DNA of 64,000 nucleotides from Magnetococcales bacterium (GTDB lineage: Bacteria; Pseudomonadota; Magnetococcia; Magnetococcales; JADFXB01), in NCBI GenBank assembly GCA_015233935.1, contig JADFXB010000006.1, forward strand, positions 1-64,000. Reading direction: 5' to 3'. This document shows, one piece after another, positions 675-36,827 of this stretch (positions are counted from its first letter, which is position 1; every line of letters starts with the position of its first letter). The notes under the pieces are model-generated. The model saw only the letters and a list, made by a program, of their open reading frames with translations. It did not search any database and was not told the origin of the DNA. The position numbers were made by a program, and so were the translations under genes.

Positions 675-3410
675 TTACTCCTTCTCCTGCAACTTTCTGG
701 CTGTCTGGCCGATGGCCTTCAGCAAATCCTGCTTTTTGATGGGTTTGATCAAATGACCATCACACCCGGCTGTGAGACTCTCGCTCATGCTGCTCATGGA
801 GGCATGGGCACTCAAGGCCAGGATGATAACAGGAGGACGCTGTTCTTCCTCCTCCCACTGACGAATTTGTCGGGTGGCGGCATAGCCGTCCAGAATGGGC
901 ATTTGAATGTCCATCAACACAAGATCAAACGTCTCCTCTTTGATCCGTGCCACAGCTTCAAACCCATCCTTGACCATCACCAAGGTATGGGGGGTTTTCT
1001 TTAAATATACCTGGAAGAGAACCTGATTATCCAAAGAATCTTCTGCCAGCAGAATACGCAAACCGGGGACCGTTTCCAAACAGAGGGATTCCTCCTCCTC
1101 TGGTTGCATGGAATGCTTGGCAGCCAGTCGAACCGGCAGGGTAAAATAAAAAGTACTCCCCTCCCCCAGCACACTGTTGACCCTAATCTCTCCACCCATA
1201 AGTTCTACCAGCTTGCGGGAGATGGCCAGCCCCAGACCGGTTCCACCATAACGACGATTGATCCCTGCCTCCGCCTGGGTGAACTGTTCAAAGATACGCT
1301 GTAAATGATCAGGAGCAATACCTATCCCCGTATCCCTCACCGCAAATAATAAAAATTCTTCTTTTTGCGGATCCCTCTGCAAGGTGACCGTAATCCTTCC
1401 CTGTTCTGTAAATTTGATGGCATTGCCTATTAAATTGACCAATATCTGACGAACACGCCCATCATCCCCCAGGATGGCTTTGGGAAGGCTTCCAGACACA
1501 TCCATTTGCAATAAAAGGCCTTTCTGCTCAGCACTCAACTGCATTAAATGCACCGTTTCCGTCACCATCATGGTGGGGGAGAAGGGCAGATCCACCAGGG
1601 CGAAATGACCAGACTCAATGCGGGAAAAGTCCAATACATCGTTGATGATGGCCAAGAGTGCCCCACCCGAACGATGCATCATTTCCACATAATGGCGTTG
1701 CTCCTGGTTCAGGTCGGTGTCCAGCAGAACACTGCTCATCCCCAAAACCACATTCATGGGGGTACGAATTTCGTGGCTCATGGCGGAGAGAAATTCACTC
1801 TTGGCACGAGATGCGAACTCGGCCTGCTCCTTGGCCAGGCGCAACTCCTCCTCCTCCTGTTTTCGCTTGGTGATGTCGGTGGAGATGCCACAGACTGCGT
1901 AAGGAATATTGTCCCCATCCCGTAACGTAAACTTGACGGATATGTAGAAGTGCATACCATCTTCATGGGGAACTTGTTCGTCGGTCTGAATCGGCTGATT
2001 GGATTGCAAGGCCCATTGGTCATTGGCACGAACATGACTGGCCACCTCTGCCGGAAATAGATCATAATCGTTTTTGCCCTGTATCTCCTGATTGGTGATG
2101 GCAAACAACTCTTCAAACCGGCGATTGATGAACAAATAACGGCCTTGTAAATCTTTGATAAAAACCACCAGTGAGGTGTTTTCCAGAATAGAGCGCAACC
2201 GCTCCTCGCTGTTTCGCAACTCCTTGTGGGCCTGATGGAGTTCCTCTTCCGCCTTTTTGCGCTGGGTAATATCCCGGGCGATGCCATCGATGGCCAGCAG
2301 GTGACCATGATCGTCATAACATGGGGTATTGCGAATTTCAGTCCATAACAGGGATTGATCTTTACGAATCCATCGCAACACCACCGGCTCGTCAAAACTT
2401 TCCTCAATGTTCTCTAATATACGTCGGTCATCAGGATGGATTAATTTATATCCCAGTTGGGGGTTGGCATAATGCTCTTCCGGGGTGTAGCCTGTAAGTT
2501 TGGTGGCTGAAGGACTGACATATTCAAAGCCGGGAGGATTCAACCTGTAGCGAAAAATGATATCCTGTGCCCGTTCGGAGAGAAGACGAAAACGGGTTTC
2601 ACTCTCAAAAAGGGCCTTTTCCACCTGCTTGCGCCGGGTAATGTTTTCCATGGCAATCAGGAAAAAGTGCTCTTCCGCGCTGATTTCCCCAATCAGGGTG
2701 AAGGTCATACTCCCCCACAAAAAGCCACCTTTTGGATTGGGAAAACGGGTCTCCGTTTGAAAGGAAAGTATTTCACCCTGCCGCAATCTTTGCATTTGGG
2801 ACAAAATGGGGGGAATGTCCGCTGGATGAATGATATCTATAAGCTTTTTCCCCACCAGCGTACCACCATCACACTCCAGTATGGCACAAAAGGCATGGTT
2901 GCTTTCCAAAATGGCCCCATTTAAGGCCACCCGCACCATGCCCACCCCCACATGATCCACCATGGCACGAAACTTGGCTTCACTCTGCTGCAAACGTAAC
3001 AGGGTCCACTCCTGCTCCTGCCGCAAACGGTACAAGTCCAAAAACACCTGCACTTTGGAGAGCAGAATTCTCTCGTCAAAAGGCTTTTCCAGATAATCCA
3101 CCCCACCCGACTCATAACCACGCAATAAATGACGTGGATCCTTGTAGGCCGCAGTCAGAAAAATAATGGGAATGTGGGAGGTTTGTTTGACCCCCCGCAC
3201 CATCTCAGCCATTTCATAGCCATCCATCTCCGGCATATCCACATCCAATAGAATGAGGGCCACCGGCTCCGCCAACACTATTTCCAGTCCCTTGGGGGCA
3301 GAATCCGCCACTAAAATCTCCACCTGCAAATGAGCCAGCAGTTGTCGCATGGCATGCAGGTTGGCAGGACGATCATCCACCACCAATATTTTGGTCAAAG
3401 GATGGTTCAT
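675..3410 (-). CDS. Soluble hybrid histidine kinase (REC-PAS-PAS-PAS-HisKA-HATPase-REC)
   Basis: A 911-residue sensor kinase with no obvious membrane segment, so probably cytoplasmic. It starts with a receiver domain (residues about 6-125, phospho-acceptor D56 in LLDVDMPEMDG). Three PAS domains follow (about 145-510), each closed by an ITRRK- or ITQRK-type PAC motif. Then come the HisKA domain with H546 in SHEIRTP, an HATPase_c domain with N-box NLIGNAIKF, G1 DTGIGI and G2 GGTGLGLAIS, and a C-terminal receiver with D834 in LMDIQMPILDG. There is no HPt domain, so a separate phosphotransfer protein would be needed. Its start codon overlaps the stop of the upstream kinase gene by an ATGA, which points to translational coupling. 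The signal sensed is not evident. The domain order is clear; partners are unknown. Confidence 0.93.
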   Translation of the reverse strand: MNHPLTKILVVDDRPANLHAMRQLLAHLQVEILVADSAPKGLEIVLAEPVALILLDVDMPEMDGYEMAEMVRGVKQTSHIPIIFLTAAYKDPRHLLRGYESGGVDYLEKPFDERILLSKVQVFLDLYRLRQEQEWTLLRLQQSEAKFRAMVDHVGVGMVRVALNGAILESNHAFCAILECDGGTLVGKKLIDIIHPADIPPILSQMQRLRQGEILSFQTETRFPNPKGGFLWGSMTFTLIGEISAEEHFFLIAMENITRRKQVEKALFESETRFRLLSERAQDIIFRYRLNPPGFEYVSPSATKLTGYTPEEHYANPQLGYKLIHPDDRRILENIEESFDEPVVLRWIRKDQSLLWTEIRNTPCYDDHGHLLAIDGIARDITQRKKAEEELHQAHKELRNSEERLRSILENTSLVVFIKDLQGRYLFINRRFEELFAITNQEIQGKNDYDLFPAEVASHVRANDQWALQSNQPIQTDEQVPHEDGMHFYISVKFTLRDGDNIPYAVCGISTDITKRKQEEEELRLAKEQAEFASRAKSEFLSAMSHEIRTPMNVVLGMSSVLLDTDLNQEQRHYVEMMHRSGGALLAIINDVLDFSRIESGHFALVDLPFSPTMMVTETVHLMQLSAEQKGLLLQMDVSGSLPKAILGDDGRVRQILVNLIGNAIKFTEQGRITVTLQRDPQKEEFLLFAVRDTGIGIAPDHLQRIFEQFTQAEAGINRRYGGTGLGLAISRKLVELMGGEIRVNSVLGEGSTFYFTLPVRLAAKHSMQPEEEESLCLETVPGLRILLAEDSLDNQVLFQVYLKKTPHTLVMVKDGFEAVARIKEETFDLVLMDIQMPILDGYAATRQIRQWEEEEQRPPVIILALSAHASMSSMSESLTAGCDGHLIKPIKKQDLLKAIGQTARKLQEKE

Positions 3411-6400
3411 AACTGAGACCTCTCTTGCGGGTGCACAGTTCGTTTAACAAGAGTTTCCATAAGATGGCTGCACAGGGTATCCAAAGAGACCGGCTTGGCC
3501 AGATAGCCATCCGCCCCAGCAGCAAGACATTTTTCCCGATCACCTGCCATGGCCATGGCGGTCACGGCAATCACCACCAAATGTTTAAACCGCTCATCCC
3601 CACGAATTTTCTCCAGGGTGGCAAAGCCATCCATATGGGGCATGCGCATATCCAATAAAACTGCATCAATCTCCGGGTGGGACTCCAGCTCTTTCAGTGC
3701 TCTAATCCCATCAGCAGCCAGGATAATTTTTTCTACCCTTGTTTGCATTCCTTTGGCCAAGGTAAAGGCCGCCCGCATGTCATCGTCCACCACCAACAAG
3801 GTGATGGGTTGACCATGCAAGGTTAACAAAGGCACCAGTTCCGGTTCAGGGGTGGTGACAGGAGGTGGCAGGGGTGGTGATGGTTCTTCCGCTTGCCGGG
3901 CAGGTAACCATTGGCGCAGGGCCAATAACAGGTGCTCAATATTCACAGGCTTGGACAAATAACCATTGGCCCCCACCTCCAGACAACGCAGGCGGTCACC
4001 CGACATGGCCTTGGCCGTCAAAGCAATAATGGGCAGTTCTGCCCACTGGGCATTTTGCCGAATGGCCTGAATAGTCTGAAAACCATCCATCACCGGCATC
4101 ATGATATCCATAAAGACGATATCAATGTGGGGAAAATCGTTGAGACATTTTAAAGCCTGCTCCCCATTGTCCGCACTTTTCACCTCTTTTACCAAATCGG
4201 CCAGGATGGTTTGCAAAGCAAAGCGATTGCGTGCATCGTCATCCACCACCAACACCGTGGCCCAAGGGGCGCGAAAATCCACCAGCGGGGTTTGGGTCTC
4301 CTGCTTGAATCCAACAGGCAACGGCAGTTCAGGCAGGAACAGGGTAAACGTGCTGCCCACTCCCAACTGACTGGTCACCTGAATCTCCCCCTGTAACAGG
4401 TGGGCAAACTTACGGGAGATGGAAAGCCCCAATCCGGTCCCACCAAACTTGCGACTTGTGGCCCCATCCACCTGATGAAAGGTCTCAAATACCTGCCCCA
4501 GTTGATTGGCCGGAATGCCAATGCCACTGTCGGTCACCGCAAAGGCAATCACCTGCTGGCGCGGTAAAGGGAAGGGACAATTGCCCTGGGGACGAAACAA
4601 ATGAAGGGCCACTTCCCCCTTTTCCGTAAACTTGATGGCATTGGCCAGTAAATTGCGCAACACCTGCTCCACCTTGGCCCCATCGGTAATAAAGGCGGCT
4701 GGCAAGTCTGCGGCCATGGATAGGGTAAGGGTCAACCCCTTGCTGTCGGCCAAAGGACGAAATTGTTCCTCCAACTCTGCCATGAAGCGGTTTAGGTTGA
4801 CCACCTCCGGCAATAGTTCCATGCGTCCTGCCTCAATCTTGGAAAGATCCAGAACCTGGTTGATCAAGTTCAACAAGTCCATGCCACTGTCATAAATCAC
4901 CCGCGCAGAATCCCTTTGATCGAGCGTGAGATTTTTTGCTTTGGTCAAGAGCTGGGAGAGAATTAATAAACTGTTGAGCGGGGTACGCAGTTCATGGGAC
5001 ATGTTGGCCAAAAATTCCGACTTGGCCCGATTGGCGGTTTCGGCAGCTTGTCTGGCTGCCACCATGGCCTCTTCCATCTCTTTGCGAATACTCACATCCC
5101 GCAAGATCCCCGCCATTCCCTGCACCGTGCCATCCTCCCCTGTTTGCAAGGCGGCATAAACCTCCAGCCAGAGAATTTTGCCCGACTTGTGCACCGCCAT
5201 GAATTCATCCCGAAAGGTCTCTTTACGCCCTCTCATCAACTGTTGAAAATCCACCAGGGCACGGTGATGTTCTGAAGATTGAATAAAGGTGGTCCATTTT
5301 TTCCCCAGGGTATCTTCCACCCCATGGCCACTTATCTCTTGCCAGGCTGCATTGAGAAAGGTCCAATGGCCCAAAGCATCGGTCTGAAAGATCACATCCT
5401 TGACATTTTCCACCATAATTCGGTAGTGGGATTCCGCCTTGTTCAACTGGGCCGCCATGGATTGCGCCCGCTTTTCCACCCGATCCTTTTGCCCGGACAA
5501 AGCAAGGACGATAAAAAATAACAGAAGATCCACCGTCATCCCCATAAAGGCCACAATCAGGGATTGATGACTCTCCATCTCCTTTTCAAAAGAGGCGCGA
5601 CTACTAAATGTGACCAACCAGGTACGCCCTGGCAGATCCATTAAACTGGTGGTCGTATAACGGGAGCGATGCGGAGTGGCTAAGTTTTCCTTGTCAACAG
5701 AACTATAAAGCAGGCCCGATTCATGAACTTCCGTACCATCATGAATGGCAAAATCCAAATCCGGAATCCCATGCCCCAACATACCCCGCATCAAATCTCG
5801 AATGCGAAAGGGGCTATAGACAAAACCCGACAGGGCGAGTCGCCTTTCCTGTACGGTGTTGGTTGGATAGCCATGTTTATAAACCGGTAAGTACATCAAA
5901 AACCCAAACTGCACATCCTTGTTGGTCTCCTGTACCAGGGTGACCCGTCCGGACAAAGCTGGCAAACCGCTGTCTCTCGCCTGTTCCATGGCGGAACGGC
6001 GAACCTCCTCCGAAAACATGTCAAAGCCAAAGGCTCGCAGATTGCGCCCCTTGAAAGGCTCCAAATAGATAATAGAGCTGTAGACAGGCCGTTCCCCCGG
6101 CGGACGTACAGAGAAATTGAGGAACCCCTCCTCCCGAATTTTTCGTACCAGGGGTAGTTTTTCCTCGGGAGGAAACATGAGGGAAAATCCCATGCCCTGA
6201 ATGCCGGGCCAGAAGGTGTCCAGTTGCAAGGTGGTCACATAATTATGCCAATCCTGGCGGGTGACCAGGGTGCTGGCATTGAATAATCCCACCCCACCCC
6301 GCAAAACCTGTTCATACTCCCGCATGCGCTTGTAAATGGCGATCCTGGCCTCTTCCACCTTGAAGGCAAAACGATCCTTGGCCCGCTCCTCGACGGAAAC

Positions 6401-7387
6401 ATTGGAAATATGCCACGCCAGAATGGTGAGCAAAATAGAAATGGCCAGAATGATCCAGGCGGTGACCTTGTTGTGCAAATATTCCAAAGGAGAAACTGGC
6501 ACCGCCGACCCACGGCTCTTGAGCAAATACGCCAGACGCCGTCCCACCCACCAGAATAAGCCCGCCAAGGGCAACAAGAAAAGCCACCCAAGCTTATACC
6601 AATCTTGATTGGTTGCCTTTTTATCCAACCCATACCAACGTTGATAAGACTCCCGATACTGGGGAGTATGAACAATTTCCTGCAACGCCTGATCCATTTT
6701 TGATTTCAACAGGGCGTTGTCTTTGCGGACCATCATTCCCCGTGGCATCTCCAACAGGGGTTTTCCCACCGGCTTGATGGCATCCCCCAATCCCATACTG
6801 GCAGCCTTATTCAGCACCACCCCATGGGGTGCGACAAAAACATCCACCGCCCCTTTCACCAACTGAAACAAAGCCGTTTCCATATTGATGGCAGGAATGA
6901 GATTGATGTGGGAATTATTTTCCAGCTTGAGAAAGGCTGCCCCCTGGCGAATGGCCGCCACCCGCAGACCACTTAACTGGTCACATCCACCCACCTGTTG
7001 GTTGGATTGAACCACAAAACAGGATACCGCAATGGTTTCCACCGGTTCAGAAAAAATAAATTCCTTTTCCCAACGTGGAGCCATGGCCATGGCAGGCATC
7101 AAATCCGCCTCTTTATTACGTACTGCGGCGGCTGCATCCTCCCAATTTTCCACCACCTGATAATGAATTTTCCACCCCAACTTGTCGGCTACCTGGTCCA
7201 AAATTTCGATGGCCAATCCACCAGGATTGTTCTTTTCATCCAGTTGATATAAAGGTGGAAAATCACGCAGAACCACCGCCGTCATATTACGACGCGGAAA
7301 GGATTCCTCACTCCATACCGGAGTTCCTTCCCACAAAAATAACATCAGGGAAATAAAACCAATATGTAATAACAAGTTCTTTTTCAT
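3407..7387 (-). CDS. Membrane hybrid histidine kinase (SBP_bac_3-CHASE-PAS-HisKA-HATPase-REC-REC)
   Basis: A 1326-residue sensor kinase. I start it at the ATG at 7387, preceded by GAGAG and followed by a clear signal peptide (MKKNLLLHIGFISLMLFLWE), and not at an upstream in-frame ATG that gives a poor leader. A periplasmic amino-acid-binding-like domain (SBP_bac_3, about 30-265) is followed by two hydrophobic segments. A CHASE-type extracytoplasmic domain (about 345-560, ending in DLPGRTWLVTFSSR) and a further membrane segment come next. Inside the cell are a PAS domain, HisKA with H798 in SHELRTP, HATPase_c (NLLANAIKF, DSGIGIP, GGTGLGLSIS), and two receivers with D1094 and D1246. Two different periplasmic sensor folds in one chain suggest integration of two ligands. 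The gene couples to the next kinase through a 4-base overlap. Confidence 0.92.
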   Translation of the reverse strand: MKKNLLLHIGFISLMLFLWEGTPVWSEESFPRRNMTAVVLRDFPPLYQLDEKNNPGGLAIEILDQVADKLGWKIHYQVVENWEDAAAAVRNKEADLMPAMAMAPRWEKEFIFSEPVETIAVSCFVVQSNQQVGGCDQLSGLRVAAIRQGAAFLKLENNSHINLIPAINMETALFQLVKGAVDVFVAPHGVVLNKAASMGLGDAIKPVGKPLLEMPRGMMVRKDNALLKSKMDQALQEIVHTPQYRESYQRWYGLDKKATNQDWYKLGWLFLLPLAGLFWWVGRRLAYLLKSRGSAVPVSPLEYLHNKVTAWIILAISILLTILAWHISNVSVEERAKDRFAFKVEEARIAIYKRMREYEQVLRGGVGLFNASTLVTRQDWHNYVTTLQLDTFWPGIQGMGFSLMFPPEEKLPLVRKIREEGFLNFSVRPPGERPVYSSIIYLEPFKGRNLRAFGFDMFSEEVRRSAMEQARDSGLPALSGRVTLVQETNKDVQFGFLMYLPVYKHGYPTNTVQERRLALSGFVYSPFRIRDLMRGMLGHGIPDLDFAIHDGTEVHESGLLYSSVDKENLATPHRSRYTTTSLMDLPGRTWLVTFSSRASFEKEMESHQSLIVAFMGMTVDLLLFFIVLALSGQKDRVEKRAQSMAAQLNKAESHYRIMVENVKDVIFQTDALGHWTFLNAAWQEISGHGVEDTLGKKWTTFIQSSEHHRALVDFQQLMRGRKETFRDEFMAVHKSGKILWLEVYAALQTGEDGTVQGMAGILRDVSIRKEMEEAMVAARQAAETANRAKSEFLANMSHELRTPLNSLLILSQLLTKAKNLTLDQRDSARVIYDSGMDLLNLINQVLDLSKIEAGRMELLPEVVNLNRFMAELEEQFRPLADSKGLTLTLSMAADLPAAFITDGAKVEQVLRNLLANAIKFTEKGEVALHLFRPQGNCPFPLPRQQVIAFAVTDSGIGIPANQLGQVFETFHQVDGATSRKFGGTGLGLSISRKFAHLLQGEIQVTSQLGVGSTFTLFLPELPLPVGFKQETQTPLVDFRAPWATVLVVDDDARNRFALQTILADLVKEVKSADNGEQALKCLNDFPHIDIVFMDIMMPVMDGFQTIQAIRQNAQWAELPIIALTAKAMSGDRLRCLEVGANGYLSKPVNIEHLLLALRQWLPARQAEEPSPPLPPPVTTPEPELVPLLTLHGQPITLLVVDDDMRAAFTLAKGMQTRVEKIILAADGIRALKELESHPEIDAVLLDMRMPHMDGFATLEKIRGDERFKHLVVIAVTAMAMAGDREKCLAAGADGYLAKPVSLDTLCSHLMETLVKRTVHPQERSQL

Positions 7388-7684: not shown

Positions 7685-7978
7685 ATGAAAACGAAAATCC
7701 GTCCGTTGCATGACCGTGTGATCGTCAAACGTCTGGAATCGGAAGAAAAGACCGCCTCCGGCATCATCATTCCCGATACGGCCAAAGAAAAACCCATTCA
7801 GGGTGAAGTAATTGCCGTGGGTAAGGGTGCTGTCAAGGAAGATGGTTCGGTGCGCCCCTTGGAAGTGAAGGCGGGTGATCGGGTCCTGTTCGGCAAATAT
7901 TCCGGGACCGAAGTCAAACTGGATGGTCAAGAGCTGTTGATCCTCCGGGAGTCGGACATCATGGGTATTGTGGAATAA
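7685..7978 (+). CDS. groES: Co-chaperonin GroES
   Basis: A 97-residue protein of standard Cpn10 length, with the N-terminal [12 protein letters not shown] strand, the mobile loop around residues 17-33 ([20 protein letters not shown]) that contacts GroEL, and the closing [12 protein letters not shown]. It forms the heptameric lid of the GroEL chamber in the cytoplasm. GAGG ends a few bases before the ATG. groEL follows after 51 bases, so the two genes form one operon controlled by the CIRCE pair upstream. Confidence 0.98.
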
Positions 7979-8014
7979 TACCTGTTTGGCATCTTCATCC
8001 AACGGAACATCTAG

Positions 8015-9679
<1,665 letters not shown>

Positions 9680-9716
9680 TTCCCGCCCAACAGTCGTCTT
9701 GGTCGGTAAAATGATG

Positions 9717-9755
9717 AAACACCCGGTAGGGACCCCTGCCGGGTGTTTCTTTTTG
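9717..9755 (+). terminator. Rho-independent terminator of groESL
   Basis: AAACACCCGG (9717-9726) pairs perfectly with CCGGGTGTTT (9739-9748) around a 12-base loop, followed by CTTTTTG. It ends the groESL transcript. Confidence 0.9.
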
Positions 9756-9817
9756 CAGAAGGTTGGTTTATAGTGACCACCGGTACTTGTTTTCTTTAGA
9801 CCTGGAGTCTGGCAAAC

Positions 9818-23796: not shown

Positions 23797-26652
23797 ATGA
23801 CCATCTCCCTCACTGAATTAGTCGATATTCGCCAGGTACAGGCCCTGGCCGACGCCCTTTATCACGCAGCCGGCATTCCCATTGGCATCATTGGGGTGGA
23901 TGGCAAAATTTTGGTGGCCACCGGCTGGCAGGATATCTGCACCCGCTTTCATCGTGTGCATGAAGTTACCCGCAAACGATGTCATGAGTGCGATCAAATT
24001 ATGGCCCAGCGGCTTCCCCATTTAGCGGCTGGTCAATGGGTGGAATACAAATGCCATAACGGACTATGGGACATCGCCATCCCCATTCTGGTGGATGGTC
24101 TACACCTGGCTACCTGTTTTCTTGGACAATTTTTTTATGAGGATGAGCAACCGAACAGGGCATTTTTCTGTCAGCAAGCGCGGCAATTCGGATTTGATGA
24201 AAGGGAATACTTGCAGGCATTTGAACGCGTCCCCATCTTTTCCCGAACAAAGGTGCAAGCCATCATTGAGTACAACATTCAACTGGTTTCGCTTCTTTCC
24301 ACCATGGGACTGGCCAATAAACAGTTAAAGCAGGATATGCGACGCATGGAAGGGGAGGGCAACCATCTGTTGCGCCGCCAGGCCGAAGAATTGTTGCGGA
24401 AAAACAGTGAACTGATGCAGGCCACCTTTGAATCCACCCGGGATGGCATTCTGGTGGTGGATAAAGAGGGCGGAGTGATTCGCGCCAATCAGCGTTTTCG
24501 CGACATGTGGCGCATTCCCCATTCCATTATGACCGAAGGACGGGATGAACGGTTGTTGGGATTCGTCCTGGATCAACTGGTCAACCCGGATGCCTTCGTG
24601 CAAAAAGTGGCGCAACTCTATCAGGCCGACGCCATCGATTCCGACCTGGTGGTTTTCAAGGATGGTCGCCTGTTTGAACGCTACTCGGCCCCTTTGTCAG
24701 ACAAACAAGGTTTGGCTGGTCGGGTGTGGGTCTTCACCGATATCACCGAACGCAAACGGGTGGAAGATGCCTTACGTTTGCGTGATGAAATTTTGCAAAA
24801 TCTGGCCGAAGGGGTGTTTCTTGTTCAGGCTGACAAGGGCATCATCCTCTACGCCAATCCCATGATGGAACGCATGTTTGGCTATGATCCCGATGAACTG
24901 ATGGGTCGGCATGTGGCCATTCTCAATGCCCCCACCACCCTGTCGCCGGTAGAAACCGCCCAAGAGATTATAGCGGAATTAAACCAGAAAGGGAGTTGGA
25001 GTGGCGAAATCTGCAATCAAAAGAAAAATGGGGAGGTTTTCTGGTGCCACGCCGTGGTTTCCACCTTTCTCCATCCCATTATGGGAAGGGTTTGGGTATC
25101 CATCCATCAGGATATCAGCGAGAAAAAACGGTTGCAGGAGGAGCTGAACCAATTCTTTACCCTCATGGATGACATGCTGTGTATCGCCGATACCCACGGC
25201 TATTTTCGGCGGCTGAATCCTGCCTGGGAACGCACTTTAGGCTATACCTTGAACGAGTTGACCAGTCGGCCTTTCACCAGTTTTATTCATCCTGAGGATG
25301 TGAACGCCACCCGGCAGGCCATTGAGGAATTGCGTGGGCAAAATCCGGTTTATAATTTAACCAATCGGTATCTGTGCAAGGATGGCTCATTCCTTTGGTT
25401 GGAATGGCGGGCAGTACCGGTAGGAAATGTGGTCTATGCCGCAGCCCGTGATATCACCCAACGTATGCATATTCAGGAGGAGTTGCAACAAGCCAAGGAG
25501 CTGGCGGAGGCCGCCGCCAAGGCCAAGGGTGATTTTCTCGCCGCCATGAGCCATGAAATTCGTACCCCCATGAATGTGGTCATGGGATTGTCCGATGTAT
25601 TGTTGGAAATGGATCTTTCCGATTCACAACGGCAGATTGTCCAGACCATGCACCATTCGGGCAATGCCTTGTTGGGTGTGATCAACGATGTGTTGGATTT
25701 TTCCCGTATTGATGCGGGCAGAATCACCCTCAACCAGGTGGCTTTTTCTCCCCGGCAAATGGTCCAGGAAACCACCCGTCTGATGCAAATGGCCATCGAA
25801 GAAAAGGGGCTGATACTGGTGGAACGATTGAGTTCGGACCTGCCAGACAGCTTGCTGGGGGATGATGGACGATTGCGACAGGTTCTCATTAATTTATTGG
25901 GCAACGCCATTAAATTTACCAGCCAGGGTCGGATTGAAGTTTTGGTCTCCCCCTTGGAGGGTGAATTGTTGTTTCAGGTGCGGGATACGGGGATTGGCAT
26001 TTCCCCGGAGACCAGGGCCACCATTTTTGAGCAATTTGTCCAGGCGGATGCGGGCATCACCCGAACCTTTGGCGGCACTGGTCTGGGTCTGGCCATCAGT
26101 CGGCGACTGGTGGAATTGATGGGCGGGCGGATTTGGGTGGAGAGTCAGGTGGGGGAAGGCAGTTGTTTTTCCTTCACGTTGCCCATTCAGTTGGCCAGCC
26201 AAGCCCCTTTGCCACCGGTGATTGAGGAGGTATTGCCGATGGAAGATGAAGTGGGTCTGGATATTTTACTGGTGGAAGACTCTCTTGACAATCAGCTTCT
26301 CTTTCAGGTTTATCTGCAGAAAACCCCTCACCGTCTGGTGATGGCCAACGATGGCATGGCGGCCATGGAGTGGATCCAAAGGCAAAAGTTTGATTTGATC
26401 CTGATGGATATTCAAATGCCGGTGATGGATGGCTACGCCACCACCCGCGCCATTCGCCACTGGGAACAACGCTCCCAACACCCTCCCATGGTCATCATCG
26501 CCTTAAGTGCCCACGCCTCCATCGACAAAAAGCAGGACAGCCTGTCTGTGGGTTGCGACGACCATTTAACCAAACCCATCAAAAAGCGCGACTTCCTGAA
26601 AGCCATTCAATGGGCCAGGCAAAAGATAAATGAAAATCGCTCCGTGAGGTAA
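23797..26652 (+). CDS. Soluble hybrid histidine kinase with PocR sensor (PocR-PAS-PAS-PAS-HisKA-HATPase-REC)
   Basis: A 951-residue kinase without membrane segments. The N-terminus (about 5-170) is a PocR domain with its conserved cysteines (RKRCHECDQ, EYKCHNGLWDIAIPI), a fold suggested to bind small hydrocarbons or metals. A coiled coil (about 180-215) leads to three PAS domains (about 215-575). HisKA has H586 in SHEIRTP; HATPase_c has NLLGNAIKF, DTGIGIS and GGTGLGLAIS. The C-terminal receiver has D871 in LMDIQMPVMDG. From the HisKA domain on it is clearly paralogous to the kinase at 675-3410, including near-identical receiver ends (TKPIKK against IKPIKK). It stands alone; no cognate regulator adjoins it. 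Confidence 0.93.
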   Translation: MTISLTELVDIRQVQALADALYHAAGIPIGIIGVDGKILVATGWQDICTRFHRVHEVTRKRCHECDQIMAQRLPHLAAGQWVEYKCHNGLWDIAIPILVDGLHLATCFLGQFFYEDEQPNRAFFCQQARQFGFDEREYLQAFERVPIFSRTKVQAIIEYNIQLVSLLSTMGLANKQLKQDMRRMEGEGNHLLRRQAEELLRKNSELMQATFESTRDGILVVDKEGGVIRANQRFRDMWRIPHSIMTEGRDERLLGFVLDQLVNPDAFVQKVAQLYQADAIDSDLVVFKDGRLFERYSAPLSDKQGLAGRVWVFTDITERKRVEDALRLRDEILQNLAEGVFLVQADKGIILYANPMMERMFGYDPDELMGRHVAILNAPTTLSPVETAQEIIAELNQKGSWSGEICNQKKNGEVFWCHAVVSTFLHPIMGRVWVSIHQDISEKKRLQEELNQFFTLMDDMLCIADTHGYFRRLNPAWERTLGYTLNELTSRPFTSFIHPEDVNATRQAIEELRGQNPVYNLTNRYLCKDGSFLWLEWRAVPVGNVVYAAARDITQRMHIQEELQQAKELAEAAAKAKGDFLAAMSHEIRTPMNVVMGLSDVLLEMDLSDSQRQIVQTMHHSGNALLGVINDVLDFSRIDAGRITLNQVAFSPRQMVQETTRLMQMAIEEKGLILVERLSSDLPDSLLGDDGRLRQVLINLLGNAIKFTSQGRIEVLVSPLEGELLFQVRDTGIGISPETRATIFEQFVQADAGITRTFGGTGLGLAISRRLVELMGGRIWVESQVGEGSCFSFTLPIQLASQAPLPPVIEEVLPMEDEVGLDILLVEDSLDNQLLFQVYLQKTPHRLVMANDGMAAMEWIQRQKFDLILMDIQMPVMDGYATTRAIRHWEQRSQHPPMVIIALSAHASIDKKQDSLSVGCDDHLTKPIKKRDFLKAIQWARQKINENRSVR

Positions 26653-26899: not shown

Positions 26900-27985
26900 G
26901 TGAAAATTTCACGGGTCAAGCTGGAAAATTTTAAACGATTCAAAAATCTGGAATTTGAAGTCAAAAATCATTTACTGAATGAAATTGCCGATCAGTTTTT
27001 AATTTTGGGAGATAATGGCACCGGTAAAACATCGGTCTTGCAGGCCATTGCTCTATGCCTGTCCTTGGCCGCTGGCCCCACAAGGAATGTGCATCAGTTT
27101 GACTGGCCGGGTTGGCTTCCCCAAAGATATGAAAAATGGGGCGTCCCTGTCGTGGAACTCGACGTGCACTTTACCCCAGACGAAATTCAAGCTACCCAGG
27201 AAATAGCCCGAGAGTGGCAACGGCAGAGCGGTCCCAAACATGGAGAATTTGTTGAACCAGGAGATTGGGCACAGGTAACCCTGCGTCTTGCAAGCGGCCA
27301 ATGCCAAGTTTCCAACGCCCCCCGCCAATGCCTTTTTCAATTTATGGGACGTTTCTACGCCTCCCGTCTTCTCTCGCAAAATCCTGATATAGCAGACTTT
27401 TTTTACCGTCTTCCCGGCATCTTCTGGTTTGATCAATACCGCAACCTGGCCAGCAAATCTTGGCATGGCCCAGAATCCAATCCCAATCCCCTTGGAAACT
27501 ATTCCAACAGTGTGTCGCTTTTGCGAAAACAGCTCACCAGTTGGTGGCTTAATCGATTTGCTGGCGGCGGAGGCCATAGAGACTGGCTGTTGGAATTGGA
27601 AAACAGCTATAAAAATGTCTTTCCAGGACGCTCCTTCAGCGGATTGGAACCCATGTTTCAAGGTGGTATCCCCACTCCCACGGACTACTTTTTTCTATTA
27701 TCCGATGGCTCCCGCACCTACGATATCGAAGAAATGTCCTCCGGCGAACAATCCGTTTTCCCCTTGCTGGTGGATTTTGTACGTCTGCAAATCCGTAATT
27801 CTGTTATCCTGATAGATGAAATTGATTTGAACCTGCACCCTCCCCTGGCCCAAGCCGTGCTCATGGCTTTGCCAAACATTGGTCCCCAGTGCCAATTTAT
27901 CTTTACCACCCACTCGGATGCGGTTTCTTCCCTGGTCAGCCAAGAAGAAATTCTCCGGTTGCCGGGAGGTCGTTTATGCCTGTAA
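26900..27985 (+). CDS. AAA/ABC-type ATPase, first gene of a split ATPase-TOPRIM pair
   Basis: A 361-residue RecF/SMC-like ATPase. It has KISRVKLENFKRFKNLEFEV at the start, Walker A GDNGTGKTS (G37-T44), an ABC signature SSGEQSVFPLL near 285, Walker B VILIDEIDLNLHPP with D306-E307, and the FTTHSD switch histidine near the end. There is no long coiled-coil insert, so it belongs with the OLD/RloA/AriA kind of small ATPases. The start is GTG 26900 behind GGGAGTCGGAG. Its last 10 bases overlap the next gene, which encodes a TOPRIM-like protein. This arrangement is that of PARIS and related defence systems. The ATPase role is certain by motifs; defence is inferred. Confidence 0.87.
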   Translation: MKISRVKLENFKRFKNLEFEVKNHLLNEIADQFLILGDNGTGKTSVLQAIALCLSLAAGPTRNVHQFDWPGWLPQRYEKWGVPVVELDVHFTPDEIQATQEIAREWQRQSGPKHGEFVEPGDWAQVTLRLASGQCQVSNAPRQCLFQFMGRFYASRLLSQNPDIADFFYRLPGIFWFDQYRNLASKSWHGPESNPNPLGNYSNSVSLLRKQLTSWWLNRFAGGGGHRDWLLELENSYKNVFPGRSFSGLEPMFQGGIPTPTDYFFLLSDGSRTYDIEEMSSGEQSVFPLLVDFVRLQIRNSVILIDEIDLNLHPPLAQAVLMALPNIGPQCQFIFTTHSDAVSSLVSQEEILRLPGGRLCL

Positions 27986-28803
27986 CACTGTTATTATGCG
28001 AAGGGGTTCCAAATGGCCCAGATATCGTTCTGCTAGGAAAACTACTGGCCGGAAAATGTGAAATTAAGGCCATGGGTGGAAAATACGGAATGGGTGACCG
28101 CGTTATGGCCCGTCAGGAGGTGCTGGGTGAAGGGTCGGTGGCAGGACTCCTGGATAGAGATTTTATCAACCCCTGGCAACCTCCCCAATATATTCCAAAG
28201 CCTTGGACTATTTCAGGCGGACATCATCGCTTGGGTTGGTATTGGGAACGAAAAGAGATCGAAAACTATTTGCTTGATCCTTTGTTGATTGAAAAATTAT
28301 TTAATGGAATCATAGATATGGATGAATACATAAAAATATTGAACCATGCACGCGACACCATCGCCAATTATCAAGCAGCTCGCATTGCTTTAAGCGCAAA
28401 CCGTCTTCGTTTTTCTCCTTTGCCGTCTTCTTTTGGAAGCAAGAGAGGCAGCGATAAACATCTATTTCCAGATGCACTGGATATCAACAGTTGCCAAGCA
28501 GGCATTGAACAAACGATACAGGCATATGATGGTAGCCAGACTATTTCCTTAGAACAGGTTCTGAAAACCTTTACTGAGGTGCTGCCTGAATGCCAACCAG
28601 GAGGGGGTCGCTATGACAACTTTCTTTGTGGTTTTGCGGGCAAGGATTTACTATGGGCCATGGATGGGTGGATTAAATCCAAAGGCTGGCAAGGTGCCTT
28701 TGCCTTGCGGGAAAAAATAGTCAAAAGCATTCGACAAAGCTCCGATGACATCTCCCAATGGCTTCCTGAACTGGCAGCCTTGAAGCAGATGATTTTATCG
28801 TGA
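27976..28803 (+). CDS. DUF4435/TOPRIM-like protein, second gene of the pair
   Basis: A 275-residue protein starting at ATG 27976 behind GGGAGG inside the ATPase gene. The N-terminal part fits a TOPRIM fold as found in DUF4435 proteins: VTLLLCEGVPNGPD with E9, then GGKYGMGD, then VAGLLDRDF with D60 and D62, followed by the typical WERKEIENYLLDP (E96). TOPRIM proteins of this kind act as nucleases gated by a partner ATPase, for example AriB in PARIS. The C-terminal half is helical and I cannot assign it. The sequence is lower in G+C than gatC just downstream. I am confident of the pairing, fairly confident of the TOPRIM call, and only inferring defence. Confidence 0.75.
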   Translation: MPVTLLLCEGVPNGPDIVLLGKLLAGKCEIKAMGGKYGMGDRVMARQEVLGEGSVAGLLDRDFINPWQPPQYIPKPWTISGGHHRLGWYWERKEIENYLLDPLLIEKLFNGIIDMDEYIKILNHARDTIANYQAARIALSANRLRFSPLPSSFGSKRGSDKHLFPDALDINSCQAGIEQTIQAYDGSQTISLEQVLKTFTEVLPECQPGGGRYDNFLCGFAGKDLLWAMDGWIKSKGWQGAFALREKIVKSIRQSSDDISQWLPELAALKQMILS

Positions 28804-28888
28804 TATCTCACAGTTGAGAGGATGCCCCCCATGGTCGGTCATGGCGGGGGTGGGTTTGGTTTTGGTTGCAATCCCAATGGGGGTTAGG

Positions 28889-29176
28889 ATGACGATTACG
28901 CCGGAAGTGGTGGGAAAGGTGGCCCATTTGGCACGGCTGGAATTGACGGCTGAGGAAACACCCCGCTATGCGGAGCAGTTATCCCGCATTCTGGAACTGG
29001 TGGAAAAGCTCAACCAGTTGGATACCAGGGAGGTCCAGGCCATGACCCACGCCGTCGCCCTCACCATGCCGGAACGCCCGGATCAGGTGACCAACGGTAA
29101 CCAACGGGAAGCCATGCTGGCCAACACCGCCCAACAAGCGGACGGCCACTTCTGCACCCCCAAATTTGTGGAATAG
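28889..29176 (+). CDS. gatC: Aspartyl/glutamyl-tRNA amidotransferase subunit C
   Basis: A 95-residue Gat[21 protein letters not shown], then [26 protein letters not shown], and the extended tail ending [11 protein letters not shown], in place of the usual ..F.VPKV. It wraps around GatA and steadies the GatAB complex that amidates Glu-tRNA(Gln) or Asp-tRNA(Asn). The start is ATG 28889 (TTAGG upstream); the longer frame adds an improbable hydrophobic leader. It is first in gatCAB, with gatA 10 bases downstream. Confidence 0.96.
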
Positions 29177-29186
29177 GAGTCAAGCC

Positions 29187-30650
29187 ATGGATGCCGCTGC
29201 ATTGACCCTGGCTGCCGCCAGTCGCCTGCTGGCAAAGGGCGAACTCTCCTCCCTGGAATTGACCCAGGCCGTCCTCCACCGCATCAAGACACTCAACCCA
29301 CGCCTGAACGCCTTCATCAGCGTGGATGAAGAGGGTGCCCTGGCCGCCGCTCGCCAGGCAGATGAGCAACGGCGACAAGGGGAGACCACCCCGTTGACCG
29401 GCCTGCCCATTGCCCTCAAAGATATCTTCTGCACCCGCCAACAAAAGACCACCTGTGGCTCCCGCATGCTGGCCAACTTCCAGCCCCCCTATGACGCCAC
29501 AGTCACCCGCAAGCTGCAGCAAGCCGGAGCCGTCATCGTCGGCAAGACCAACATGGATGAATTTGCCATGGGTTCTTCCAACGAAACCTCCTGGTTTGGC
29601 CCAGTGAAAAATCCCTGGGATCTCACCCGCACCCCCGGCGGCTCCTCCGGTGGTTCCGCCGCTGCCGTGGCAGCCGATCTCTGCCTGGCCGCCATCGGCA
29701 CCGATACGGGCGGCTCCATCCGCCAGCCCGCCTCCCTGTGCGGTATCAGTGGTCTCAAACCCACCTATGGTCGCGTCTCCCGCTTCGGCATGATCGCCTT
29801 TGCCTCCTCCCTGGACCAGGGCGGCCCCATGACCAAAAGTGTGGAAGATGCCGCCATCCTGTTGCAAGCCATGGCGGGCCACGATGCCGCCGACGCCACC
29901 AGCATTCCCCAGCCGGTGCCCGACTACCCGGCCCTGCTCCAACAGAGCGTCTCCGGCATGCGCTTGGGCATCCCCGCTGAATATTTTACCGACGGCATGC
30001 AACCGGAAGTACAACAAGCGGTGGATGCGGCCATCCAGATTTTCCATAGCCTGGGAATAACCACCGTCCCGGTTTCCTTGCCCCACACCAGCTATGCGGT
30101 CCCCACCTATTACATCATCGCCTCTGCCGAAGCCTCTTCCAACCTGGCCAGGTATGACGGCGTTCGTTTTTCCCATCGCTGCCAGGAGGCCAAAGATTTG
30201 GCCGATCTTTACTTCCGCAGCCGGGCCGAAGGATTCGGGGCCGAGGTCAAACGACGGATCATGCTGGGAACCTACGTGCTCTCCTCCGGCTATTACGATG
30301 CCTACTATCGCAAGGCCCAAAAGGTGCGACGGTTGATCGCCGACGATTTTGACGCCGCCTTCCGGCAAGTGGATGCGGTCCTCACCCCCACCTCACCCAC
30401 CACCGCCTTTCGTATTGGGGAGCGTACAGACGATCCGGTGCAAATGTATCTGTCGGATATTTTCACCATCGGGGTCAATCTGGCTGGCTTGCCCGCCCTC
30501 TCCCTGCCCTGTGGTCGTGATCAGGCAGGATTGCCCATTGGCATGCAGTTGATCGGCCCGCCCTTGGGCGAGTCTCCCGTGTTGCAGCTTGGCCATGCCT
30601 TTCAACAGGCTACCGACTGGCATCACAGCAAACCTGTCATTGTTGAGTGA
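29187..30650 (+). CDS. gatA: Aspartyl/glutamyl-tRNA amidotransferase subunit A
   Basis: A 487-residue amidase that frees ammonia from glutamine for transamidation. The Ser-cisSer-Lys triad is seen in [10 protein letters not shown] (Lys near 76) and in the signature [19 protein letters not shown] with [14 protein letters not shown] (the two serines near 150 and 174). AGGAG precedes ATG 29187. It is the middle gene of gatCAB, and gatB follows after 12 bases. Its strong codon bias produces long meaningless frames on the opposite strand. Confidence 0.97.
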
Positions 30651-30662
30651 GGGGATATTCAC

Positions 30663-32117
30663 ATGGACAATCGCCCCTTTGAAATGGTCATCGGCCTGGA
30701 AGTTCATGCCCAACTGGCCACCCGTTCCAAACTGTTCTGTGGCTGCTCCACCCGCTTCGGGGCAGAGGCCAACACGCAAATTTGCCCGGTGTGCGCCGCC
30801 TTTCCCGGTGTGCTGCCGGTCCTCAACCAACTGGCGGTGGATATGGCGGTTAAAACTGGTCTGGCGGTGCGTGGCACCATTCAAACCACCAGTGAATTTG
30901 CCCGCAAAAATTATTTCTATCCCGACCTGCCCGCTGGCTATCAAATCAGCCAGTTTGAACTGCCCATCATTCTCTCCGGCCATGTGAACATTCCCCTGGC
31001 CAATGGGGAGATCAAACGGGTGGGCATCACCCGTATTCACATGGAGGTGGATGCAGGGAAAAGTCTGCATGAAGGTATTGTTGGGGCCTCCTGGGTGGAT
31101 CTCAATCGTACCGGCGTTCCCTTGATGGAGATTGTCTCTGAACCGGACATGTCTTCTCCAGAAGAGGCGGGGGAATATTTGAAAAAATTGCGCTCTACCC
31201 TGCGCTATCTGGAAGTGTGTGACGGCAACATGGAAGAAGGCTCCTTCCGTTGTGATGCCAATGTGTCGGTTCGTCCCCGTGGTGAAAAAAAACTGGGCAC
31301 CCGCTGTGAGTTGAAAAATCTCAACTCCATTCGTAACGTGATGCGCGCCATCACCTATGAGGCCCAACGCCAGGTGGAGTTGATCCTGGATGGCGGTCAG
31401 GTGGTGCAGGAAACCCGTCTGTGGGATCCCAATCAGGGTATCACCCGCACCATGCGGGGCAAGGAGGAGGCCCACGACTATCGCTACTTTCCTGAACCCG
31501 ACCTGCCCCCTTTGGTTTTGACCCAAGACCGAATCCAAAAATTGGCCGACTCGCTGCCCGAATTGCCCGATCAAAAGGTGGTGCGTTTTCAAAAAGACTA
31601 CGAACTCTCCCCCTACGATGCGGAAGTTTTGGCCGCCAGTCGGGAGTTGGCCGAATATTTTGAAACCGCCAGTCGCGCCCTTGCCGCCAGTGGTCACAAC
31701 GATGCCAAAACCGTGGCCAACTGGGTAATGGTGGAACTCTTGGGTCGCCTCAACCGGGAGGGACTGGAAATCACCGACACCCCGGTCTCTGCCTTGCACC
31801 TGGCCGGACTGATTGCCTTGATCAAAAAGGGGACCATCTCTGGCAAGATTGCCAAAGAGGTCTTCGCCATCCAATGGCAAAATGGTCAGGATGCCGAGAC
31901 CATCGTGCGGGAGCGGGGATTGGTGCAGGTGACCGATAGCGGCCTCATCGAAGCCGAAGTGGAGCGGGTGATCGCCGCCTATCCCAGCGAGGTGGAACAA
32001 TATCGTTCTGGCAAAACCAAAGTCTTCGCCTTTTTTGTGGGGCAGGTGATGAAGGCCACCAAGGGCAAGGCCAATCCGGCCATGGTCAATAAATTACTTG
32101 AAGACAAACTGGCCTGA
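30663..32117 (+). CDS. gatB: Aspartyl/glutamyl-tRNA amidotransferase subunit B
   Basis: A 484-residue GatB, the kinase/tRNA-binding subunit. It opens [20 protein letters not shown] and has the zinc-type cysteines C-x-C (LFCGCSTRF) and [25 protein letters not shown] is followed by the tail YqeY-like domain ending [11 protein letters not shown]. It activates the tRNA-linked carboxylate with ATP. Its stop overlaps the start of the next gene (TGATG), so the AsmA-like gene is probably read from the same message. Confidence 0.97.
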
Positions 32118-34310: not shown

Positions 34311-34631
34311 ATGATTGATGAACAAATAATTCAGAAAATCGGTGTGTTGCTGGCTGAGGCCGCCGGACCTTCCCGGGTAATTCTCTTTGGTTCCCACGCC
34401 CGCAACGAAGCAGGGGAAGAGTCTGACCTGGATCTTCTGGTGGTCAAACCCATGGTCAGCAACCGTTTGCTGGAAATGACCCACTTGCGACAGGTATTGC
34501 GCCCTTTGCGCATTCCAGTGGATCTTCTGGTTTGCTCTCTATCGGAACTGAACGAACGCGCCGGAATGCCCAGTGGGGCCATCTACTGGGCGTTACAGGA
34601 GGGGAGGACCATTCATGACTCTCTTGGATAG
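34311..34631 (+). CDS. MNT-type minimal nucleotidyltransferase
   Basis: A 106-residue protein with the pol-beta nucleotidyltransferase motif GSHARNEAGEESDLDLLVV (GS-x-AR and DxD) near residues 28-46. The C-terminal IYWALQEGRTIHDSLG is the typical end of MNT proteins that pair with a HEPN RNase; the MNT adds AMP to the HEPN partner as an antitoxin. Here the partner reading frame is present only as its first six codons (see 34615-34635). The gene is therefore an orphan antitoxin or a remnant of a defence module. Confidence 0.88.
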   Translation: MIDEQIIQKIGVLLAEAAGPSRVILFGSHARNEAGEESDLDLLVVKPMVSNRLLEMTHLRQVLRPLRIPVDLLVCSLSELNERAGMPSGAIYWALQEGRTIHDSLG

Positions 34632-34908: not shown

Positions 34909-36216
34909 GTGCTCATTCGTTTGACCGTTGAAAATTGGAAGTCCTTCCGGGATCCCGTCACCTTTTCCATGGTGGCCACCCTTGAGCGGCAGTATCGGAA
35001 GCGTTTGCCGACGGTCCGCAACATGAAACTCTTGCCCATTACTGCCATCTATGGTGGTAATGCCTCCGGCAAGTCCAATCTGGTTCATGCTCTGAGTTTT
35101 ATTAAAAATTTGGTCGTCAAAGGGACAAGCCCTAAAAAAAGCATTCCAGTCGTTCCCTTTCGCTTGGACCGTGAATCTATTGAAAAACCATCAAAGTTTC
35201 AGATCGCCTTTGTTGCCGGGAAATCCGTCTATGAGTACAGTTTCGCTGTGACAAGGCAGCATGTTGTTGAAGAAAAATTGGTTGAAGTTCTAACCAAGGG
35301 AGATAAAATACTTTATGATCGGCAGGAAGGTAAGTACAGTTTTGACCCTACCTTACCTGATCATGAGTCATTAAAAATAATTGGGAACGGGACTAGGGAT
35401 AATCAACTTTATCTTTCAAATTCCGTGTCCCAGAATCAGAAACAATTTTTACCAGTATATGAGTGGTTTGAAGGTTCCTTATTGGTAATTGGACCAGAAC
35501 AATCGTTTTTATCTATGGATCAAATGATTGAAGGGTTTGATGATCTTCCCGAGTTTGCTAAAGAAATGTTACAACGCCTCGATACAGGAATTAGCAGATT
35601 AGAGAGCGAGACCATCCCTTATGATAATGCTCCCATACCTAAATATATTAAGGAGAAAGTATTTTCAGAACTGGCAGATGGTGATACTGAAAATATAGGG
35701 GGACCATCCGTGGGTCACAGATATATTTTAAGAAGAAAAGAAGGAGAAAACATTATAGAGAAGGTGGTTTCTTACCACGGCTCGCCAGATGGGATTGAAG
35801 TCAAATTCGATCTAATGCACGAGTCAGATGGTACTCTACGTTTAATCGACCTGCTGCCAGCGTTTTCTCTTCTAATAAACAATAAAATTAACAAAGTAGT
35901 TATCATTGACGAACTTGACCGGAGCTTGCATACTTTATTGACCCGCAGTCTGCTTGAGGAATATTTACAGCATTGTTCCCCAGAAAGTGGCAATCAGCTC
36001 ATTTTTACCACCCACGATGTCATGCTCATGGACCAATCCATGTTGCGACGGGATGAAATGTGGGTGACGGAAAGGGATGATACCGGCAATACTACCTTAT
36101 TCTCGTTCAGTGATTACAAAGATGTGCGTTACGATAAAGATGTTCGCAAAAGCTACCTGCTTGGACGAATGGGAGGAGTTCCACGTATTTTATTCATAAA
36201 GATGAGGAATTCATGA
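34909..36216 (+). CDS. AAA_15-type ATPase (RloA-like)
   Basis: A 435-residue ATPase starting at GTG 34909 behind GAGGGGGTTAGG. Features are LIRLTVENWKSFRDPVTFSM, Walker A GGNASGKSN (K55), the MHESDGTLRLIDLLPAF signature, Walker B KVVIIDELDRSLH (D334-E335) and the switch FTTHD. The domain set matches RloA and AriA ATPases found in defence loci. Its last codon overlaps the RloB-like gene in an ATGA, so the two are coupled. The DNA is visibly richer in A+T than gatCAB or glnD, which suggests horizontal acquisition. It is not closely similar to the ATPase at 26.9 kb. Confidence 0.88.
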   Translation: MLIRLTVENWKSFRDPVTFSMVATLERQYRKRLPTVRNMKLLPITAIYGGNASGKSNLVHALSFIKNLVVKGTSPKKSIPVVPFRLDRESIEKPSKFQIAFVAGKSVYEYSFAVTRQHVVEEKLVEVLTKGDKILYDRQEGKYSFDPTLPDHESLKIIGNGTRDNQLYLSNSVSQNQKQFLPVYEWFEGSLLVIGPEQSFLSMDQMIEGFDDLPEFAKEMLQRLDTGISRLESETIPYDNAPIPKYIKEKVFSELADGDTENIGGPSVGHRYILRRKEGENIIEKVVSYHGSPDGIEVKFDLMHESDGTLRLIDLLPAFSLLINNKINKVVIIDELDRSLHTLLTRSLLEEYLQHCSPESGNQLIFTTHDVMLMDQSMLRRDEMWVTERDDTGNTTLFSFSDYKDVRYDKDVRKSYLLGRMGGVPRILFIKMRNS

Positions 36217-36827
36217 GAAAATTTGCAAGAGCGGAAAAAAATCAGGCCCTTAGAAAACGTTTCATCATCTCTACGGAAGGGACAAAAACCGAGCCTGGAT
36301 ATTTTTCCCTGTTGCAAAAATTTATTTCACGAGAATCCATCAATCTTCAAGTCTTGCAAGGAGCGCGGCAAACCGATCCGGTAAGTGTGTTGGAAAGAAT
36401 GGTAAAGCATTTACAAGATTCTCCAGCGAGAAATATGGATCAAGCCTGGCTGGTTGTGGACAGAGACACCTGGCCGATAGATCAACTTAATCAACTATTT
36501 ACTTGGCAACAAAAACAGAAAAATTATCAGGTAGCCCTATCCAATCCCAAGTTTGAATACTGGTTACTCCTGCACTTTGAAGATGGGAATCAAATCCAAA
36601 GCAGTGACGCTGTCACCAATCGGTTGGAAAAATGTTGTCCAAATTATACCAAAAATATAGATCCCGATAAATTCAAATTTGATGATATTGTTAAGGCTAT
36701 TGACCGGGCCAAAGTTCGTTATCAACATTCCCATGATAAAAAATTTTTAGAGATGGGCACCACCACAGTCTTCAAATTGGTTAAAACCATCCTCTTGGAA
36801 ACAGGCTTGATGAATCAACCACAATAG
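36213..36827 (+). CDS. RloB-like TOPRIM protein
   Basis: A 204-residue protein with the RloB pattern: RFIISTEGTKTEPGYFSLLQ (E22), AWLVVDRDTWP (D83 and D85) and NPKFEYWLLLHFED near 110. The first acidic residue and the DxD pair fit a TOPRIM metal site. RloA/RloB pairs were first noticed beside type I restriction genes and are candidate defence systems in which the ATPase controls a nuclease. The gene is coupled to the ATPase by a 4-base overlap and shares its low G+C. No restriction genes are in this window. Confidence 0.85.
   Translation: MRKFARAEKNQALRKRFIISTEGTKTEPGYFSLLQKFISRESINLQVLQGARQTDPVSVLERMVKHLQDSPARNMDQAWLVVDRDTWPIDQLNQLFTWQQKQKNYQVALSNPKFEYWLLLHFEDGNQIQSSDAVTNRLEKCCPNYTKNIDPDKFKFDDIVKAIDRAKVRYQHSHDKKFLEMGTTTVFKLVKTILLETGLMNQPQ

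Follow-up and report, generated by a model that had tools for sequence, protein, structure and literature searches.

Proteins in which an ABC ATPase is linked to a TOPRIM domain have been surveyed before as a general kind (PMC12839542). In OLD class 1, Gabija GajA (class 2) and retron class 3, the ATPase and TOPRIM activities reside in one chain, and in PARIS ('class 4 OLD') an ABC ATPase gene is followed by an adjacent, separate TOPRIM gene. PARIS loci have been defined by an ATPase that reaches at least 32 bits with AAA_15 or at least 27 bits with AAA_21, accompanied by a neighbour that reaches at least 27 bits with DUF4435 (Rousset et al. 2022, PMC9122126). Defence is lost upon deletion of either gene, and neither deletion is toxic (PMC9122126). 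In the described mechanism, a hexamer of the ATPase AriA sequesters the effector AriB, a phage protein acts as the trigger that frees it, and the AriB dimer then cleaves tRNA (PMC12409363). An OLD-type protein with a non-defence role has also been reported, the archaeal Cran1, which acts in cell-cycle progression (PMC12796447).

The window analysed here, a stretch of 64,000 nucleotides from a Magnetococcales bacterium (contig JADFXB010000006.1 of a metagenome-type assembly with 414 contigs), carries a pair of genes that shares with PARIS the order of an ABC ATPase gene and a separate TOPRIM gene, as well as the character of a mobile two-gene cassette, and that is probably a mobile defence pair of the abortive-infection type with a PARIS-like mode of action. 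The locus and its surroundings comprise the following features:

23797-26652: PAS/PocR hybrid histidine kinase, upstream of the pair
26900..27985, + strand: ABC/OLD-type ATPase, the predicted sensor subunit (361 aa, GTG start)
27976..27985, + strand: 10-base overlap ATGCCTGTAA, encoding the ATPase C-terminus (..CL-stop) and also the effector start (MPV)
27976..28803, + strand: AriB-like TOPRIM protein, the predicted nuclease effector (275 aa from the conserved ATG at 27976)
28814-32117: gatCAB (gatC = PF02686), downstream of the pair
34311-34631, + strand: small stand-alone nucleotidyltransferase, MNT-antitoxin-like (PF01909), just ahead of the AbiL pair
34909-36827, + strand: AbiLi (PADLOC, E 3.9e-84) and RloB/AbiLii (PF13707, 125.9 bits), a pair with a 4-base overlap

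A first-pass annotation of the sequence had given the coordinates, the 361-aa length of the ATPase and the 10-base gene overlap correctly (27976-27985). The start of the effector gene in the list of open reading frames (27889) lies upstream of the likely one, as the relatives point to an ATG or GTG within the overlap. Compared with OLD classes 1 to 3, the same two activities are here divided between two proteins; moreover, no UvrD-like helicase gene (GajB) adjoins the pair, in contrast to Gabija, and no reverse transcriptase lies near it, in contrast to the class 3 retrons. The AbiL pair, 6 kb downstream of the PARIS-like pair, is a second ATPase/nuclease-type pair in the window. It is likewise split, into an ATPase and an RloB protein, but its ATPase belongs to a different branch (22% identity) and its effector to a different family (PF13707).

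The ATPase scores 74.5 bits with AAA_21 (cut-off 27) and 56 bits with AAA_15 (cut-off 32.1), above both values of the published PARIS rule (AAA_15 >= 32 or AAA_21 >= 27 bits; PMC9122126), and its AlphaFold2 model has a pLDDT of 87.9. The Walker A, signature, Walker B and switch histidine read in the first-pass annotation are all present, with invariant positions in 43 of 43 aligned relatives:

27008..27031, + strand: Walker A, GDNGTGKT, residues 37-44 (G37-G40 and G42-T44 invariant in 43/43)
27734..27751, + strand: ABC signature, MSSGEQ, residues 279-284 (S280, G282 and E283 invariant in 43/43)
27803..27820, + strand: Walker B and catalytic glutamate, VILIDE, residues 302-307 (D306 and E307 invariant in 43/43)
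27911..27913, + strand: switch (H-loop) histidine H338 (invariant in 43/43)

The closest solved relatives of this protein, by sequence search and by fold search, are PtuA chains, and PtuA also provides its best PADLOC models, while the OLD chain 6p74 is a weak match. This likeness to the PtuAB of Septu and retron I-A would be expected from a Septu- or retron-type PtuA sensor whose HNH effector had been swapped for a TOPRIM nuclease. However, similarity to the PtuA models is not discriminating, because canonical AriA proteins reach about 84-86 bits on them as well, and the ATPase family falls outside the PtuA rows of the ATPase tree. The effector is also of the TOPRIM type instead of an HNH PtuB, and no HNH gene was found beside the pair, nor a reverse transcriptase, nor any Rfam match between positions 25500 and 30000, for which reasons a retron reading was rejected and a PtuA chimera appears improbable. 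In a tree that includes few AriA rows and does not settle the deep branching order, the ATPase family forms a clade of its own (support 99/98) on a long stem, and the AriA partners of DUF4435 proteins form another (97/92). This phylogeny with known PARIS, which the first-pass annotation had proposed as a check on its assignment, thus places the window ATPase apart from the AriA clade. The protein is also shorter than AriA (361 aa against 464 aa) and nearer to PtuA in sequence searches, so that the hexamer and the trigger pocket of AriA may not have been retained.

The TOPRIM-like E...DRD...EN pattern that the first-pass annotation had noticed in the second protein resolves into three conserved elements, D60, E94, E96 and N97 being invariant like E9:

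28000..28002, + strand: TOPRIM glutamate E9 (CEG after strand 1; invariant in 49/49)
28153..28161, + strand: TOPRIM DxD, residues 60-62, DRD, at the end of predicted strand 55-59 (D60 in 49/49, D62 in 48/49)
28255..28272, + strand: EIENYL motif, residues 94-99 (invariant in 49/49)

Residues 60-62 read DRD in the window protein and DGD in many relatives. The AlphaFold2 model, built on a 49-row alignment, reaches a pLDDT of 94.6 and a pTM of 0.91, and its predicted topology is strand-helix-strand-helix-strand, in which E9 follows strand 1 and D60xD62 follows strand 3, an order and placement that in the model is TOPRIM-like. When the model is compared with the PDB by Foldseek, two matches have E <= 1e-3, both of them PARIS AriB (8ux9_A, 2.4e-5; 8v46_D, 2e-4), and all the remaining matches have E > 0.2; the TM-scores with AriB are modest (0.44-0.46) and the rmsd high. 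An AriB-type TOPRIM fold is therefore predicted for the effector, and a second protein devoid of a TOPRIM fold, the outcome that the first-pass annotation had named as contrary to its proposal, is not what the model gives. The predicted catalytic glutamate and DxD on which PARIS effectors are also judged are conserved (E9, D60 and D62), and fold, catalytic residues and E-I-E-N-Y-L motif together make up the likeness of this protein to its PARIS counterpart.

At the level of sequence profiles the relationship is more distant. The window effector has no Pfam match and no DUF4435 match at E <= 1, so that the DUF4435 label is the one particular of the first-pass observation that did not hold, and its sole PADLOC match is AriAB, at 21.6 bits. 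Within the family, AriAB is matched by 49 of 49 effectors, AriB by 19 of 49 (best E 4.4e-10) and DUF4435 by 7 of 49 (best E 1.8e-5); thus, the profile comparison envisaged in the first-pass annotation connects the family to AriAB and leaves the window effector without DUF4435. When the 10- and 49-row effector profiles were run against solved structures, nothing matched significantly (AriB at E 0.66), and no match to the OLD TOPRIM was found. In profile-profile comparison (hhalign), the effector family pairs with two other groups, A6 (97.4%) and A7 (96.7%), and with five bona fide DUF4435 proteins the probability is 50.5%. The A6-type pairs (L137, L138, L144 and one in genome G040) and the A7-type pairs (L056, L057 and L139), from the same order as the window, likewise place an E...DRD...ENY(F/L)L protein after an ATPase, but they form distinct groups by sequence, and their ATPases fall into clades of their own. 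L137 has no DUF4435 match, and among the A7 loci only L056 lies just above the DUF4435 cut-off (28.8 bits). A motif similar to EIENYL is found in both groups and partly in DUF4435.

These results bear on whether the family is simply PARIS, that is, a fast-diverging AriAB subtype with an AriB just under the DUF4435 cut-off, the same trigger logic and a tRNA target. AriB as the best and only significant fold match, the AriAB matches in all 49 relatives and the near full-length, sub-threshold DUF4435 match of the L080 effector (positions 11-222 of 238, 22.1 bits, cut-off 27) speak for it, and DUF4435 itself is very diverse, because L147, a canonical member well above the cut-off, fails to find the solved AriB by phmmer. 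Against it stand the published DUF4435 threshold, which the effector does not reach, the separate and long-stemmed ATPase clade and the profile match of about 50% to DUF4435 proteins, and on balance full identity with PARIS seems unlikely. Of the diverged-subtype claim of the first-pass annotation, the predicted AriB-type fold stands, and membership by the published rule and a place inside the AriA clade do not. The published rule does not admit the family to PARIS; it is best read, and until a full tree is made best filed, as a sister family of PARIS among the split ATPase/TOPRIM (OLD-type) systems. An AriAB-like defence pair is rather likely on this evidence.

A search for relatives in one genome per species (84,980 species) returned 67 loci, of which at least 55 clearly belong to the window-pair family; a few (about L120-L125) were matched only over a short stretch and resemble members of other groups. 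The hosts span about seven phyla and include Pseudomonadota, Thermodesulfobacteriota, Cyanobacteriota, Chloroflexota, Myxococcota, Acidobacteriota, Lentisphaerota and an Aminicenantes bin. Directly upstream of the effector gene, 56 of the 67 loci have an ATPase gene related to that of the window, which is broken in a few of them and otherwise whole. Each of the 47 intact pairs consists of two genes, and the 10-base overlap was detected by script in 46 of them and in L073 also when its ATG at 5656 is used (47/47). With ATPase relatives at 57-65% identity, effector relatives across phyla and a conserved arrangement, the pairing is not due to chance. Distance matrices of the two proteins correlate (r 0.82, a value reached in 0 of 2000 permutations), and ATPase and effector co-evolve. 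The fixed overlap and the location mostly outside defence islands are further differences from PARIS. A second subfamily shares 26% effector identity and 36% ATPase identity with the window pair; its loci include L051 (genome G016, 7866-9793), upstream of pheT, and L052 (genome G039, 5187-6526), at the pheT site, where the ATPase is intact and the effector lacks its N-terminal two thirds.

The distribution of the pair is that of a mobile element. Phyla are intermixed in the effector tree, and within the order an intact pair occurs in 9 of 48 genomes, the window genome included, at differing sites. In G036 and G044 the pair, together with about 0.6 kb of further sequence, is cleanly inserted between ribD and a conserved gene; in G040 this site is empty, with 27 bases between the aligned blocks. 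Reading by eye of the ribD insert (L044, about 1918-2470, minus strand; also L043) shows that a single-domain response regulator separates the pair from ribD. G040 carries, 268 bp upstream of gatC, a related but distinct A6-type pair (L234, G040:C2, 4083-6412) at the window pair's own site; in the other 17 genomes read, this site holds various other genes or the contig is too short. As the naive chance of two ATPase/TOPRIM pairs sharing the gatC site is about 1 in a thousand, in two genomes only, gatC may be a favoured insertion site.

Decay of the pair is common and biased. The TOPRIM gene is broken beside a full-length ATPase in six loci (L081, L093, L106, L109, L110 and L052), although some single stops could be sequencing errors, and the reverse, a broken ATPase with a whole TOPRIM gene, was not clearly found among the loci read; in L067 the ATPase is reduced to its last residues and the TOPRIM gene is shortened too. 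Such a bias would follow if the TOPRIM protein were the costly partner. In L093 (5968-6465, Desulfamplus), the TOPRIM core (about residues 13-126) is lost in frame beside the full-length ATPase, and this locus would represent a natural effector-dead version unless it is misassembled.

These observations also weigh on a reading without defence, in which the pair would act in genome maintenance or in the manner of a toxin-antitoxin system. The neighbourhood is in keeping with such a pair, since the closest flanking genes of the relatives are mostly ordinary metabolic genes and a defence-island test on the two nearest neighbours per side found few families with a defence role, mainly two type I specificity subunits and three PDC-S03 matches; moreover, Cran1 sets a precedent for a housekeeping OLD-family protein (PMC12796447). 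Housekeeping nevertheless sits poorly with a pair that is patchily distributed, varies in its site, is absent from one such site in a sister genome, is often broken and is mixed across phyla, and in PARIS neither deletion is toxic (PMC9122126), so that a non-defence role is very improbable. The conserved, non-mobile housekeeping context that would have weakened the first-pass proposal was not encountered, and the data support a pair that behaves as a mobile two-gene defence cassette and not as a housekeeping operon. Defence itself we infer. Carriage by phages or plasmids was rejected, as phage, plasmid and viral collections contained no homologue, an absence that, like the mostly metabolic neighbours, counts against the defence reading.

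Other associations were considered among the neighbours. A sensor kinase lies upstream in the window, a receiver gene is present in the L043/L044 insert, and in L048 a receiver gene overlaps the ATPase. A link to response regulators was rejected (5 of 149 neighbour proteins, judged chance). In L113 (2597-4906, a Myxococcota bin) the pair starts 28 bp after a gene whose product has a C-terminus like that of GatB/YqeY and may be a glutaminyl-tRNA synthetase. A link to tRNA-charging genes (gatCAB in the window, pheT in L051 and L052, the GatB/YqeY-domain gene in L113) was also rejected, as about 3 cases against about 1 expected, on our own estimate, are not significant.

By analogy, the family probably works like PARIS, a scheme with which the conserved motifs, the fixed translational coupling and the tendency of the effector to be lost first are in agreement. 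The pair would then be a translationally coupled anti-phage (or anti-mobile-element) cassette in which the ATPase assembles with the TOPRIM protein and holds it in check. An infection-borne trigger would bind the ATPase and shift its nucleotide-dependent conformation, whereupon the TOPRIM protein would be released or activated to cleave nucleic acid, most likely tRNA or another RNA as AriB does, and the infected cell would cease growth ahead of phage release. That tRNA in particular is the target is a tentative proposal drawn from AriB. A broader conception, to which we give a little short of an even chance, is that of a distinct, uncatalogued split ATPase/TOPRIM immunity, present in about seven phyla and frequent in filamentous cyanobacteria, giant sulfur bacteria, Desulfobacterota and magnetotactic bacteria, with a trigger and a nucleic-acid target of its own, in which obligatory coupling of translation through the fixed 10-base overlap would set the sensor:effector stoichiometry.

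The family is a useful find, as current profiles miss it in many phyla, but it is no surprise in principle. Because it escapes the public PARIS profile models built on DUF4435, PARIS-like immunity is undercounted in surveys, particularly among cyanobacteria and among those sulfur and magnetotactic bacteria that are large or multicellular. It also offers short, divergent and tightly coupled sensor/effector pairs with which the generality of the PARIS mechanism can be probed, that is, whether hexameric sequestration, trigger binding and the choice of tRNA are general or special to E. coli PARIS.
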